Shown here in pieces: positions 1 to 5,296 of a DNA stretch of 5,296 nt. The position numbers were made by a program, and so were the translations under genes. Each line of letters begins with the position of its first letter. Position 1 is the first letter of the stretch. This stretch comes from Thermus kawarayensis JCM 12314 (GTDB taxonomy: Bacteria; Deinococcota; Deinococci; Deinococcales; Thermaceae), in NCBI GenBank assembly GCA_001311545.1, contig BBBL01000128.1:1-5296 (forward strand), in the 5' to 3' direction. The notes beneath the pieces were generated by a model. It worked only from the letters and a program-made list of their open reading frames with translations, did no database searches and was not told where the DNA came from.

Positions 1-24
1 TTGCAAAGGCAAGCCCGGTCCTTC

Positions 25-53
25 TTGACCCCTCTGGTGCCGACGTGTATAAT
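25..53 (+). promoter_or_regulatory. Sigma-A (sigma-70-type) promoter for gltB
   Basis: A -35 box TTGACC (25-30) and a perfect -10 box TATAAT (48-53) are separated by 17 bp, the optimal spacing. Transcription would start near base 60, giving a leader of about 55 nt before the gltB start. Such a close match in otherwise very GC-rich DNA is unlikely by chance, and it points at the only gene downstream. No operator or riboswitch fold is evident in the leader. The start site is inferred from spacing. Confidence 0.85.
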
Positions 54-101
54 CCGAGGAACAACGTGCATTTCTTTGCTTACACCAAACCCCCGAAGAC
101 C

Positions 102-108
102 AAAGGAG
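102..108 (+). promoter_or_regulatory. Ribosome binding site of gltB
   Basis: AAAGGAG lies 7 nt upstream of the ATG at 116, close to ideal Shine-Dalgarno spacing. It fixes the gltB start, which places the catalytic cysteine at codon 17 behind a short propeptide. Confidence 0.85.
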
Positions 109-925
109 CCCGAAAATGACCTGGAAGGAAGCCTACCCGGATATCCCCCTAGGGCGGGACGCCTGTGGCATCATCGCCATGGCGGAGAAGAGCGGCAAGC
201 CCTCCCACCGCATCGTGCGGCGCACCCTGGAAAGTCTCTACCGGATGGCCCACCGAGCCGGGGCCATCCGTGGCGAGGGGGATGGCACCGGCATCCAAAC
301 CGACATTCCCCGGGAGCTTTGGGCTCATTTTCTAGAGCGGGCGGGGCTGGATCCCAACCTGGCCTTCAACCCCCGCTTCTTCGTAGGGCATTTCTTCGTG
401 CCCAAAAGCGAGGAGGGGCGGATAGAGGAGTTCTTCGCCTTGTTGGGCCGGGAGGGGCAGCGGCTAGGGGTGCGCCCCCTTCACTTCCGGCGGGGAGAGG
501 TGGTGAGCGAGGTTCTGGGGCCTGTGGGGCGGCGCACGGAGCCCATCTTCCTCCAGGTGGCGGGGCTTTCGCCCGATGGAGATGGGCCTTTGTGGGAGCT
601 TGGGCTTCGCCTCGAGGCCGCCTTTCCCGTGCACGTGGTTTCCTTGTCCACCCACAGCGTGGTCTACAAGGTGCGGGGGGCGGCGGAGCTTTTAAAGCGC
701 TACTACCCCGAGCTTTCCCGGCCCGAGTACAAGAGCACCATCGCCCTGGGCCACAACCGCTACTCCACCAACACCCTTTCCACCTTTGAGCAGGTGCAAC
801 CCTTCGGTCTCCTCGGCCACAACGGGGAGATCAACACCATTGAGAGGCTGAGGCGCGAGATGGACTACCTGGGCATCCCCCGCACCGGGGGCTCGGACTC
901 CCAGGACCTAAACCGCATGCTGGAA

Positions 926-928
926 GGC
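926..928 (+). other. gltB frameshift 1 (one base lost)
   Basis: The reading passes from LNRMLEG in frame 2 to LIYRFGLSL in frame 1. GAA-GG-CTC is expected to be GAA-GGC-CTC or GAA-GGG-CTC, so one G or C is missing. The break is in the amidotransferase domain just after the GGSDSQ motif, so an uncorrected product would end soon after. Confidence 0.85.
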
Positions 929-1389
929 TCATCTACCGCTTCGGCCTCTCCCTCCCCGAGGCCATGGACCTGGTCTTTCCCCCCATCCTGGGGGAGGTCA
1001 AGGGGCTCGCCCCGGAGTTGCAGGACCTCTACATGGCCCTGCGCCAGCGCTTCGGGCCCCTGGCCCAGGGACCCGCGGCCATTGTGAGCCGCCACCGGGA
1101 CGAGGCGGTCTTCGCCACGGATGCCATGGGCCTGCGGCCCCTCTGGCAGTTTGAAACCCCTTACGAGCTGGTGTTTTCCTCGGAAAGGGGGGTGTTCAGC
1201 GCCGAGGAGTTCGTCTCCGACCCCAAGCCGCTGGCCCCGGGAGAGAAGGTCTACCTGCGCCTTACCCCGGAAGGCCCCAAGGTCCTGCCCTTTGACCGGC
1301 ACCAGCGCCTGGTGCTGGAGCGGCTCTCCGCCCGCACCCCGGTGGAGGGTTACCGGGTGCACCTGGGGGGTCCCCTAAGGCAGGGGCCG

Positions 1390-1407
1390 CCCCCCTTGAG
1401 CGGGGGG
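1390..1407. repeat. C6/G6 inverted repeat in the GltB interdomain linker
   Basis: Six C (1390-1395) and six G (1402-1407) flank a 6-nt spacer. They encode part of a Pro/Gly-rich low-complexity linker (about residues 420-440) after the amidotransferase domain. It could fold in mRNA but has no T tract, so it is not a convincing terminator; base composition alone may explain it. Confidence 0.4.
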
Positions 1408-2172
1408 AGCGGGGTGGAGGTGGAGGAGAAGCCCGCCCCGCCGCCCTTGGGGCTGGAACGGGCCTTTGGCTGGGACCGCTGGGACCAGGCCTACCTCGAG
1501 GCCCTGGCCAAGACCGGGAACGAGCCCATCGGCTCTTTGGGCTACGATGGCCCCCTGGCTGCCCTTAATCCGGAGAAACCCAACCTGGCCGAGTTCTTCA
1601 AGGAAACGGTGGCGGTGGTGACCAACCCCGCCATTGACCGGGAGCGGGAAATTGAGCACTTCTCCACCCGCATCCTCTTGGGCCGCCGCCCCTTGCCCGA
1701 CGGCCGGGGTGGGGGAAGGGTGGAGGAGCTCCTTCTGCCCATCGTCTTGGAAGGGGACCGGGGCCTGGCGGAAAGCTTCGGCACCCTGACCCTCTCCGAG
1801 GTCCGGGCCCGGTTCAAGACCGCTACCCTGGTGCCCCAGTTCGCCGTGGAGGAGGGGCTTTTGGCCGGTCTCAAGCGCCTGGAGGAGGAGGCGGTGCGGG
1901 CCGTGGAGGAGGGGGCCGAGGTCCTCATCCTCTCCGACCGGGAGGCCTTCCAGGGAGGCGTTTGGATTGACATCGGGCTCGCCGTGGCGGCGGTGAACCG
2001 GGCTCTCCTCAAGCGGGATGCCGAGGGGGTGGCCCTGAGGCGCAGGACCTCCCTCCTGGTCCACTCGGGGGGCGTGAGGAACCTCCACGACGTGGCCTTC
2101 CTCCTGGGCCTCGGCGCCGAGGCCGTGGCCCCCTGGCTCATGGAGGAGAAGGCCCGGGCTGGAGGGGAGGAA

Positions 2173-2177
2173 GGGGG
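2173..2177 (+). other. gltB frameshift 2 (one base gained)
   Basis: A run of five G follows GAA where four are needed for the continuous reading GEEGVAGVLEALRKG. This is the only insertion among the six indels. It moves the frame from 1 back to 2 in the central domain, before the STMGIHELRGYG segment. Confidence 0.85.
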
Positions 2178-2512
2178 TGGCGGGTGTCCTCGAGGCCCTC
2201 CGCAAGGGCCTGGAGAAGGTCATCTCCACCATGGGCATCCACGAGCTCCGGGGCTACGGAAGGATCTTTAGCGCCATCGGCTTGAAGCCCGAGCTCGCCG
2301 AGTACTTCGGCACCCGGAACTTCCTGGGCTCGGAAAACGCCGGGTACGGCTTCCTGGAGCTAGAGCGGACCCTCTTGGAGCGCGAGGGTTTCCTCCGGGC
2401 GGAGAAAGTCCTCCCGGCCAAAGACTTCCGCTTCAACCCCCGCATCTACAAGGCCGCCCAGGAGGTGGCCACGGGCCAGGCCCCCTACGCCCACTTCCAG
2501 GAGAAGGTCCGC

Positions 2513-2517
2513 GCCTC
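2513..2517 (+). other. gltB frameshift 3 (one base lost)
   Basis: GCC-TC is expected to be GCC-CTC, which gives the continuous reading EKVRALERENPVAARQLLEV. One C is missing from a CCC run. The frame moves from 2 to 1, shortly before the FMN synthase domain. Confidence 0.85.
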
Positions 2518-2810
2518 GAGCGGGAAAACCCCGTGGCCGCCCGGCAACTTCTGGAGGTACGCTTCCCCGAAAGGAGCGAGGTGGCCCCGGAGGAGGTGGA
2601 CCTTTCCGTGGGGGCCCACTCCCTGCCCTTCGTCATCAGCGCCATGAGCTTCGGCTCCCAGGGGGAGGCCGCCTTTAGGGCCTACGTGGAGGCGGCCAAG
2701 CGCCTCAACATGCTCTGCGTCAACGGAGAAGGCGGGGAGATCCCTGACATGCTGGGGAAGTACACCCCTTGGCGGGGGCAGCAGGTGGCCTCAGGCCGCT
2801 TCGGGGTCCA

Positions 2811-2816
2811 CGCTAC
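2811..2816 (+). other. gltB frameshift 4 (one base lost)
   Basis: The reading passes from SGRFGVHA in frame 1 to [16 protein letters not shown] in frame 3. GC-TAC lacks one base, probably of GCC or GCG. Uncorrected, frame 1 ends at the TGA at 2821. A 4-base loss, restoring one more residue, would fit the frame equally well. Confidence 0.75.
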
Positions 2817-3329
2817 ATGCTGAACTCCGCCAGCGTCATAGAGATCAAGATCGGCCAGGGGGCCAAGCCCGGGGAAGGGGGGCACCTGCCGGGCAAGAAA
2901 GTCTCGGCCAAGGTGGCGGCCGCCAGGAACGCCGTCCCCGGGGTGGACCTCATCAGCCCCTCCAACAACCACGACCTCTACTCCATTGAGGACCTGGCCC
3001 AGCTCATTGAGGAGCTGAAAACCGTGAACCCCAGGGCCTTGGTCTCGGTAAAGGTGCCGGTGATTCCCGGCATCGGCACCATCGCCGTGGGCATCGCCAA
3101 GGCGGGGGCCGACGTCATCACCCTCTCGGGGTTTGAAGGGGGCACGGGGGCGGCCAGGCTCCACGCCCTGAAGTACGCCGGCCTTCCCGTGGAGATCGGG
3201 GTGCGCCGGGCCCACCGGGCCCTGGTGCGGGCCGGGCTTCGCGACCGGGTGGAGATCTGGGCCGACGGCGGCCTGAAGACGGCCTACGACGTTTTGCGCA
3301 TGGTCCTTTTGGGCGCGGACCGGGTGGGC

Positions 3330-3355
3330 ATGGCCACCATGGCCATGGTGGCCAT
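3330..3355. repeat. 26-bp perfect palindrome within gltB
   Basis: The 13-base arm ATGGCCACCATGG is followed immediately by its exact reverse complement, with no spacer. It encodes MATMAMVAI just before the iron-sulphur cysteines. The repetitive ATG-GCC-ACC-ATG-GCC-ATG-GTG-GCC codons create it; function is unknown and protein constraint may explain it. Confidence 0.8.
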
Positions 3356-3524
3356 CGGTTGTACCATCTGCCGAGGGTGCCAGCTGGACACCTGCCACGT
3401 GGGCATCACCACCCAGATAGAGACGGTGGAGGAGGCCCTGGCCCACGGCCTCAAGCGCTTTGTTCCCCAGGACACGGAGCGGGCGGTGGAGCAGCTCACC
3501 CGTTTCTTTGAGGCCAAGGGGGAG

Positions 3525-3529
3525 GCCTG
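3525..3529 (+). other. gltB frameshift 5 (one base lost)
   Basis: GCC-TG is expected to be GCC-CTG, giving the continuous reading [18 protein letters not shown]. One C is missing from a CCC run. The frame moves from 3 to 2, between the FMN/Fe-S domain and the C-terminal beta-helix domain. Confidence 0.85.
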
Positions 3530-4222
3530 CGGGAACTGGTGGCCGCCTTGGGGGCCCGCTCCCTTAGGGAGGTTCGGGGCCGGGTGGACCTTCTCTACCA
3601 GCGGGACCACCTGGAGGAGCTGGACCTCGGCTACTTCTTCCAGCCGGTGGAGGAGCCCGAGTGGCTCAAGGACACCTCGGCCCACGTGCTGCGGAAGCCC
3701 CTGAACCAGCTCACCCGCACCATCACCGAGGTGGTGATGGCGGCCTACCAGGAGGGGAGCAAGCGCCTCCTTTTCCAGGAAGGGCCGGTGGACTCCACCG
3801 ACCGGGCCCTGGGGGCCCACCTCTCCGGGGAGATCGCTAGGAGGCGCCTCTACGGCAAGGGCTTTGACGCCCAGGTGGAGCTCCACCTGGATGCGGGGAG
3901 CGTGGCCGGGAACGGCCTCGCCGCCTTCAACGTGGAGGGGGTTAAGGTGGTGGTGGAGGGCGGGGCCCAGGACGGGGTGGCCAAGGGTGCCTTCGGCGGG
4001 ACCGTGGCCGTCCTCAAGGGGCGGAACCCCTATGGGGCCTACATGGACGGCTCCGTGGGCAAGAGCTTCGCCTACGGGGCCATCGGAGGATTCCTGGCGG
4101 TGGAGGGCATGGCCGACAGCCGCTTCTGCATCCGCCTCTCCGGGGCGGACGTGGTGCTGGGTGGGGAGCCCGAGCGCCCCTTGAGGGACGACCTGGGCAA
4201 CCTGGCCGCCCGGGCCCAGGCC

Positions 4223-4228
4223 AAGGCT
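4223..4228 (+). other. gltB frameshift 6 (one base lost)
   Basis: AAG-GC-TTC is expected to be AAG-GGC-TTC, giving AQAKGFAFEYMTRGRALVLG. One G is missing from a GGG run. Uncorrected, frame 2 ends at the TGA at 4244, whose bases overlap the ATG of the downstream frame. Confidence 0.85.
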
Positions 4229-4938
4229 TCGCCTTTGAGTACATGACCCGGGGCCGGGCCCTGGTCCTGGGGGATCCCGGACCTTGGATCTGCTCGGGGA
4301 TGACGGGGGGCCGGGTCTACCTGCGCCACTGGCCGGAGATGGGCCTCACCGAGGAGGCCATGAAGCGCCGCCTGGCCAAGGGGGCCAAGGTGGCGGTGAA
4401 GCCCCTGGACGCCCGGGGGGTGGAGGACGTGCGGGAACTTCTTTCGGCCTACATCGCCCTTCTTCGGGAGGCCAAGCGGGAGGAGAAGGCGAGGAGGCTG
4501 GAGGCACTCCTGGAGGACCCTGCGCGGCACTTCCGTATGGTGGAACCCGTGAGCCAGCAGGTGGAGCAGGGGGTGAGCACGGAGTAAGAGGCTGTCGTAA
4601 AAGGGTGCCACACTTGAGGGTGGTTCTTCGCAGAGCCTACCCCAGCGACCTGAGGGATGAGGAATGGAGCATCCTGGAGCCCTTGATCCCGGCCCCCAAA
4701 GCCGGCGGTCGCCCCGCCAAGGTGCCGAGGAGGGAAATAGTCAACGCCATCCTTTACGTCCTGGAGAACGGCATCAAGTGGCGGGCTATGCCTCATGATT
4801 TGCCCCACTGGTCCACGGTCTACCACTACTTCCGCAAGTGGCAGAAGGAGGGCGTATGGGAGAAAGCCGTCCAGGCTCTGGCCCGCCAGGACCGGGAACG
4901 AGAGGGGAGAGAGGCCTCCCCCAGTGCCTTGGTCATGG

Positions 4939-4961
4939 GTCAGCCCGTGAGGGCTACCTTG
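4939..4961 (+). repeat. Palindromic micro-insert, copy 1 (23 bp)
   Basis: The unit starts GTCA and ends TACCTTG. Between them GCCC (4943-4946) and GGGC (4951-4954) pair around a GTGA loop, and an A-T pair extends the stem. It splits the codon expected to encode the first catalytic Asp (between ALVM and SQSV). One more C after GTGA would make a 24-bp unit with a 5-bp stem and keep the frame open. Boundaries rest on comparison with copies 2 and 3 and on the expected transposase sequence. Confidence 0.7.
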
Positions 4962-4975
4962 CCAGTCAGTCTGTA

Positions 4976-4999
4976 GTCACGAGCGAAGCTCGTACCTTG
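4976..4999 (+). repeat. Palindromic micro-insert, copy 2 (24 bp)
   Basis: The unit starts GTCA and ends TACCTTG. A perfect 5-bp stem, CGAGC with GCTCG, encloses a GAA loop, extended by an A-T pair. It lies between the codons for SQSV and TTEKG of the transposase. At 24 bp it is in frame and adds the eight residues VTSEARTL without a stop. This is the best-formed copy and serves as the reference for the family. Confidence 0.8.
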
Positions 5000-5041
5000 C
5001 AGACCACGGAAAAGGGGCCCCGAGGGAACGACGGGGCGAAA

Positions 5042-5064
5042 GTCACGGGCGAAGCCGTATCTTG
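5042..5064 (+). repeat. Palindromic micro-insert, copy 3 (23 bp)
   Basis: The unit starts GTCA and ends TATCTTG. CGGGC and GCCG enclose the same GAA loop as copy 2. One C is missing on the right arm; with it the stem would be a perfect 5 bp and the unit 24 bp, adding VTGEARIL in frame. It splits the conserved DGAK-KVKGRKR segment of the transposase exactly between two Lys codons. Confidence 0.8.
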
Positions 5065-5296
5065 AAGGTCAAGGGGAGAAAACGGCAGATCCTGACGGAC
5101 ACGGGGGGCCGGTTGCTGAAGGCCTTCGTGCACCCGGCCAACGAGCACGATAAGCGGGGTGGGGAGGCCCTGCTCCTGGGGATGGACCTCTCCCTCTGGC
5201 CCCGGGTGCGGAAGGTCTTTGTGGACTGGGGGTACCGGGGCCTTCGGGGGCTGGCTTCTTCCCTGGGGCTGGAGCTTGAGGTGGTGGCCCGTCCCC

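Follow-up and report, generated by a model that had tools for sequence, protein, structure and literature searches.

The window analyzed in this work, a 5,296 bp stretch of contig BBBL01000128.1 of Thermus kawarayensis JCM 12314 (positions 1 to 5,296 of the forward strand), is composed of a Thermus gltB gene, coding for glutamate synthase, and, after it, the beginning of a transposase gene of the IS5 family. The gltB gene carries the Pfam domains GATase_2, Glu_synthase, and GXGXG and is 94% identical, in two pieces, to gltB of genome G045 and 90% identical to that of G007. Its reading frames are broken by losses of G or C at positions 927, 2159 (two bases), 2517, 2812, 3527, and 4224; with respect to eight relatives, seven G/C bases are absent at six places, and these breaks are most likely sequencing errors of the record rather than marks of a pseudogene. 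The transposase gene occupies positions 4611-5296 on the plus strand, has a broken frame, and continues past the end of the window, with Pfam matches to PF13340 at 4611-4934 (2.8e-31) and to PF01609 at 5065-5295 (1e-7).

Three small hairpin elements, all on the plus strand and in one orientation, lie in the transposase gene at the positions at which a preliminary description of this DNA had placed them. Unit U1 (4939-4961, 23 nt, GTCAGCCCGTGAGGGCTACCTTG) reads GTCA-GCCC-GTGA-GGGC-TACCTTG and has a 4-nt loop, unit U2 (4976-4999, 24 nt, GTCACGAGCGAAGCTCGTACCTTG) reads GTCA-CGAGC-GAA-GCTCG-TACCTTG, and unit U3 (5042-5064, 23 nt, GTCACGGGCGAAGCCGTATCTTG) has the arms CGGGC/GCCG. The length of 24 bp given in that description holds for U2 but not for U1 and U3, and the lengths in the wider family run from 18 to 24 nt, with one strict site of 25 nt. 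The 3' arm of U3 lacks one base for complete pairing, so that U3 is probably a 24-mer with one C gone from this arm; given the G/C losses in gltB of the same window, a sequencing deletion would be the likely cause. A covariance model of 31 sequences recognized U2 with E 1.3e-11, U3 with E 4e-8, and U1 with E 2.1e-6, the fourth-best place in the window reaching an E of only 0.35; of the three units, U2 alone is among the 31 sequences of the model. A plain search with the consensus GTCANNNNNGAANNNNNTAYCTTG, allowing up to three mismatches, was weaker than the model as it missed U1 and U3, and found U2 and one unrelated place in the window (0.26 expected). Rfam gave no match in the window above the gathering score.

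Judged by comparison with homologous genes, U1, U2, and U3 are insertions into the transposase gene. Two annotated IS5 family transposases from plasmid records of Thermus thermophilus (L001 and L006) are without all three units, a third homologue (L002) is without U1 and U3 and has a sister element at the place of U2, and L025 and L037, together with L002, provide empty homologues for U3. An identical copy of U2 occupies the corresponding transposase site in L235, from a second Thermus genome. The unit-free homologues and the repeat of U2 therefore indicate that the units are neither artefactual nor an ordinary component of the transposase, and the proposal that they interrupt conserved IS5 transposase text is borne out. 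A sequencing or assembly artefact, to which the error-typical single-base losses in gltB might have pointed, is hardly credible when copies are present in complete plasmid records and in 28 of 50 genomes of the Thermaceae, and the same degree of disbelief applies to the units being an ordinary segment of the protein, uninterrupted homologues being at hand. In alignment A1 the base directly following the unit (+1) is C for U1 (position 4962) and C for U2 (position 5000), both being A in the empty homologues, and an unchanged A for U3 (position 5065), all read on the plus strand. In the transposases of L003, L004, L005, and L007 related hairpins are found elsewhere in the gene and in either orientation. 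Alignment A1 also revealed, in the IS5 transposase of L003 and L004, a longer minus-strand hairpin insert (GTGC-TTCCCC-TTTA-GGGGAA-CACCTTC) which looks like a diverged family member with a different 5' tag. The annotated transposase gene of L001 (432-1273) measures 842 nt, which is not a multiple of three, and contains an A5G5 run, suggesting programmed frameshifting; U2 and U3 of the window lie on either side of the place of this run.

The general form of the element is 5'-GTC-A-stem(2-5 bp)-loop(3-4 nt)-stem-T-A-N-CTTG-3', with a minor subclass that ends in GTTC. A strict set was composed of 118 of 137 distinct sites, the 19 sites left out including chance hairpins and looser tails; the tails of this set are CTTG (n = 105), GTTC (n = 10), and CTCG (n = 3), and 65 of its 96 three-base loops are GAA, figures to be read knowing that the strict filter itself required the listed loops and tails. 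The lengths in the strict set are 18 nt (n = 18), 20 nt (n = 18), 21 nt (n = 14), 22 nt (n = 5), 23 nt (n = 7), 24 nt (n = 55), and 25 nt (n = 1). GTC is preceded by G at 97 of the 118 sites and by C at 10, and the tag GTCA is present in every member of the aligned set. Head-to-tail tandems abut exactly, with a gap of 0 at five distinct junctions, and the borders of the element are therefore fixed. Single 18-nt units are complete elements.

The preliminary description had also stated that the arms differ between copies while pairing is kept, which is imperfectly true of U3 and is supported for the family by covariation among 31 distinct 24-mers. Standard pairs fill 98.4% of the pair cells of these sequences against 72.2% in shuffled controls, and doubly changed cells number 58 against 22.1. 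Compensatory double changes occur at all five inner stem pairs, with four pair types at one of them. The A-T and T-A pairs are invariant, and four of the 31 sequences lack pairing at the G-N foot. Two of the five covariation measures were not clearly above shuffles, namely the number of double-change pairs (reached by 85 of 500 shuffles) and the number of pair types (reached by 32 of 500). The model alignment combines 26 of the 29 distinct 24-mers from one search with five from a search of eight genomes; the three 24-mers excluded had a GTTC tail, a C for the closing T, or were the match in L042, a contig from a metagenome-assembled genome (MAG) of the Bacillota. As the source search demanded at least two outer pairs, covariation at the outer pairs is partly conditioned.

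The distribution of the family was analyzed by pattern and model searches. The pattern GTCAN{6,18}TANCTTG gave 63 matches, nearly all of them hairpins, in seven out of seven Thermus plasmids versus seven for the reversed control (14 of 92 plasmid pattern matches were set aside as non-hairpins), and 11 to 31 matches in each of eight Thermaceae genomes versus 1 to 10 for the control, the Meiothermus luteus genome G006 having 11 matches against 10 in the control and about two clear hairpins. In 2.25 Mb of sequence, part of which was chosen because it bears elements, 266 hairpins carried GTCA, while each of eight decoy 5' tags combined with the same tail gave 0 to 7. A 24-nt pattern run over species genomes found 15 stretches, 12 in Thermus, two in Meiothermus luteus, and one in the Bacillota MAG; this last contig (L042), the sole one from outside the Thermaceae, was rejected as a weak hairpin such as chance would produce, the estimate being about two chance matches for this pattern under uniform base composition. 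With the covariance model, matches at E ≤ 1 were detected in 39 of the 50 Thermaceae genomes and strong copies (best E < 1e-6) in 28, with up to 37 matches per genome, the maximum being that of G030; the remaining 61 of 111 genomes of the phylum gave no strong match, eight of them reaching E ≤ 0.1 with a best value of 1.3e-3. All of these genome counts are lower bounds, since 150 candidates per genome in the Thermaceae and 71 in the phylum were scored under strict filters. A few larger Thermaceae genomes have the family (G006, G009, G010, and G011). Many copies, including an abutting pair, lie on a single contig (C4) of G030. Copies are dispersed over both strands, inside genes as well as between them, and thus agree with what the preliminary description had named as support for a mobile family when it proposed a search of Thermus and Meiothermus; the latter genus is represented by two contigs of M. 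luteus. Spread in viruses was dropped as a possibility, as two 24-nt patterns matched no viral contig and an 18-mer matched two, neither of which is similar to the Thermaceae DNA compared. In our judgement the units very probably belong to a family of minimal palindromic elements that are mobile, non-coding, and specific to the Thermaceae.

The mode of integration was deduced from 52 distinct sites for which a homologous empty copy with flanks at least 80% identical was available, providing the empty-site homologues that a mobile family would be expected to have. In 49 of these sites the net gain is exactly one element and there is no target duplication; the other three, in which the net length differs by -1, do not enter the junction counts. 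Empty copies carry A at +1 in 46 of 49 sites, A or G at +2 in 42, G at +3 in 37, and G at -1 in 33, giving the target consensus G/ARG, where the slash marks the point of insertion. In the filled copy the +1 base is C (n = 18), A (n = 13), G (n = 10), or T (n = 8), a distribution compatible with uniformity (p 0.20) as well as with genome composition (p 0.13), and it has changed on filling in 38 of 49 sites, as compared to 54 of 784 cells (6.9%) at the neighboring positions -9 to -2 and +2 to +9. Where both flanks are at least 95% identical, the empty +1 base is A in 17 out of 17 sites and has changed in 14 of them. An example with identical aligned flanks is GATG-A-GCATC in one plasmid and GATG-(24 nt)-C-GCATC in another. 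The A-rich empty position, the mixed filled position, and the length-exact gain together mean that one A is replaced by the element plus any base, and the direction would be insertion rather than loss because the empty copies carry a near-constant A. The -1 base has changed in 8 of 49 sites, so the left border may be imperfectly sharp. The possibility that the +1 base is a 25th base of the element was not supported, concordance being found in 46 of 158 pairs where 40.2 were expected (p 0.16). We are close to certain of a mobile family together with this insertion rule, and we know of no mobile element with such a one-base-replacement scar. The replaced A was absent from the expectations of the preliminary description.

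These sites also bear on two other origins of the units. Some copies are situated within or close to IS genes, as would be the case if the units were end relics of a larger insertion sequence or MITE, but the lack of target duplication in 49 of 52 sites, the completeness of the 18-nt units, and the exact abutment of tandems make such an origin very improbable. Alternatively, the hairpin could be inserted by a local polymerase/ligase event during repair of a one-nucleotide gap left by loss of an A, e.g., by base excision in these thermophilic cells, which agrees with the replacement of exactly one A and the absence of target duplication. The target is, however, not any A, as judged from the preference for G at -1 and +3, and a dispersed family requires a donor molecule with fixed ends, and we consider repair of this kind improbable.

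A candidate driver was sought among the enzymes encoded by the same genomes. The units could be REP elements moved by a resident RAYT/TnpA transposase of the IS200/IS605 kind, which would read the tag and hairpin as single-stranded DNA. Their size and shape are REP-like, a tag and small hairpin of 20-40 bp with known intragenic copies being described in PMC3733652, and on the complementary strand the order target CYT, CAAG, hairpin resembles the order target, guide, hairpin at IS200/IS605 ends as given in PMC6006769. The Y1 domain PF01797 is present in 20 of the 50 Thermaceae genomes, but 19 of the 28 genomes with strong copies, among them the richest, G030, gave no match to it, some of these being drafts. 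A changed target base would also be unexpected from Y1 chemistry, which is precise. The family tag is neither GTAG nor GTGG, and REPs flanking tnpA were not the pattern seen, as just 2 of 30 examined tnpA loci have a copy nearby, independent of the IS end, and these two are orthologous. In these two (L090 and L105) the copy, at about position 1975 beside an IS605-like tnpA/tnpB pair, sits in a neighboring hairpin; that it might be the end of the IS itself was rejected, since the corresponding hairpin of the relative L093 is without the copy and has an A at that place. Movement by a resident RAYT/TnpA is on these grounds unlikely. Similarly, an RNA copy of the hairpin could be reverse-transcribed into a nick in a target-primed manner, the random junction base being a non-templated addition. 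Template-jumping polymerases typically leave a random base at one junction, which together with the conserved pairing would fit this route, but the reverse transcriptase domain RVT_1 (PF00078) was detected in just 4 of the 50 Thermaceae genomes, three of them carriers, leaving 25 of the 28 carriers without it, and target-primed reverse transcription appears improbable too. Argonaute, a loose idea prompted by the guide-like size and the initial C of the complementary strand, was discarded: 7 of the 50 genomes have a match (six over the cut-off), five of the seven are among the 28 carriers, and 23 carriers are without one. Among the Thermaceae genomes none of these three candidate domains tracks with the copies, absence of a domain being no proof as draft genomes may miss enzyme-encoding plasmids.

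As a model for transposition we propose that an enzyme acting in trans would recognize the folded single strand through the GTC tag, the hairpin closed by the A-T pair, and the CTTG tail. The target would be opened between G and A and the hairpin joined there, and the first target nucleotide would be lost or re-synthesized without a template, leaving the one-base scar. In most carriers the driver would be other than a resident Y1/RAYT transposase. The single-strand hairpin intermediate in this scheme is put forward tentatively, as a little less than an even call. A lagging-strand mechanism would predict a strand bias, and none is evident with respect to replication: in a hand tally of G002, G031, and G049, 16 matches run with the fork and 17 against it (5 and 10 in G002 alone), counts which form a small sample inflated by IS copies and which assume a terminus opposite dnaA and contigs of about 2.0 Mb for G031 and G049.

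Insertion has consequences for coding sequences. In 28 of 41 sites the empty copy can be read across the site for 200 codons or more without a stop, which is a rough sign in such GC-rich DNA. The element length is divisible by three in 87 of the 118 strict sites, which suggests selection for in-frame copies. In three annotated proteins of T. thermophilus plasmids, an IS1634-family transposase (as VSEATL), a TnpB-related protein, and a hypothetical protein, 18-nt copies are read as ordinary codons, one in each phase; genes thus gain short in-frame peptides through insertion of a six-codon hairpin. At 11 sites differing elements or variants are present at one place among the copies, including a GTTC-class and a CTTG-class element at a shared position, as if certain G/ARG sites were hot spots or members of the family replaced each other; such sites have either been hit repeatedly or undergone replacement or conversion between elements in situ. 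Differing members at sites shared between genomes are seen, for example, in L076 (1032), L213 (1604), and L222 (1459), and in L198 (629), L076 (371), and L213 (939).

Mitochondrial byp elements, like the small dispersed repeats of cyanobacteria, are likewise small hairpin inserts in genes. The preliminary description had likened the units to byp elements, but translational bypass is not needed here as the three annotated proteins read their copies as in-frame codons, and the likeness is by description only. The closest published kind is the superfamily of CGTC-tagged REPs, which according to PMC3733652 includes Rickettsia RPE-4 and RPE-6 and Neisseria dRS3, has no known transposase, and is composed of stems of 8-9 bp, loops of 4-5 nt, and tails that are mostly CCA, with dimers mostly head-to-head; abutting pairs on the same strand are present in the Thermaceae family. 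Both groups are, as far as the account in PMC3733652 goes, short palindromes with a GTC-containing 5' tag, an A-T closure beside it, an unpaired 3' tail, copies within open reading frames, and no dedicated transposase known. The Thermus family differs from that account in having the tag GTCA after a flank that is mostly G and not CGTC, 2-5 inner base pairs besides the A-T pair, a loop of 3-4 nt, a tail of CTTG, GTTC, or CTCG and not CCA, a length of 18-24 nt, and the one-base-replacing insertion seen here. The words Thermus and Meiothermus are absent from the main text of PMC3733652. REPs of the GTAG type, which are associated with RAYT, share a tag with a small hairpin, dispersal, and variable arms, but have another tag, and Y1_Tnp was not found in the 19 strong carriers mentioned above. 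The Rickettsia palindromic elements described in PMC2229807 (105-146 bp) likewise insert in frame into protein genes but are about four to eight times longer, a distinction made by description only. MITEs such as RUP or Correia are, in the description of PMC2229807, also non-autonomous mobile repeats, some of them in IS genes, but most have terminal inverted repeats and target duplications, and the Thermus family is without duplication. Since its features depart from those of CGTC REPs, GTAG REPs, and MITEs, the family was filed as a separate one among the small palindromes. A literature search found no description of a GTCA...CTTG family in the Thermaceae, subscription papers being outside its reach, which is in keeping with the earlier remark that no such family was known in Thermus-like bacteria.

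More than 100 distinct sites, exact borders, 52 empty counterparts, and the exchange of A for any base at G/ARG make up a sharp and testable signature, in a genus amenable to culture and transformation. PMC3733652 raises, for the CGTC families, the question of how very small bacterial palindromes such as REPs and Rickettsia palindromic elements move without a transposase of their own. The Thermus elements are possibly the smallest known class of mobile DNA, a reading to which we give slightly less than an even chance: hairpins of 18-24 nt that enter G/ARG by a chemistry not described before, remove an adenine, and leave an untemplated base by means of an enzyme which would be neither Y1/RAYT nor a reverse transcriptase. 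If this is true, the same insertion chemistry might account for the orphan CGTC REPs and the Rickettsia elements as well.
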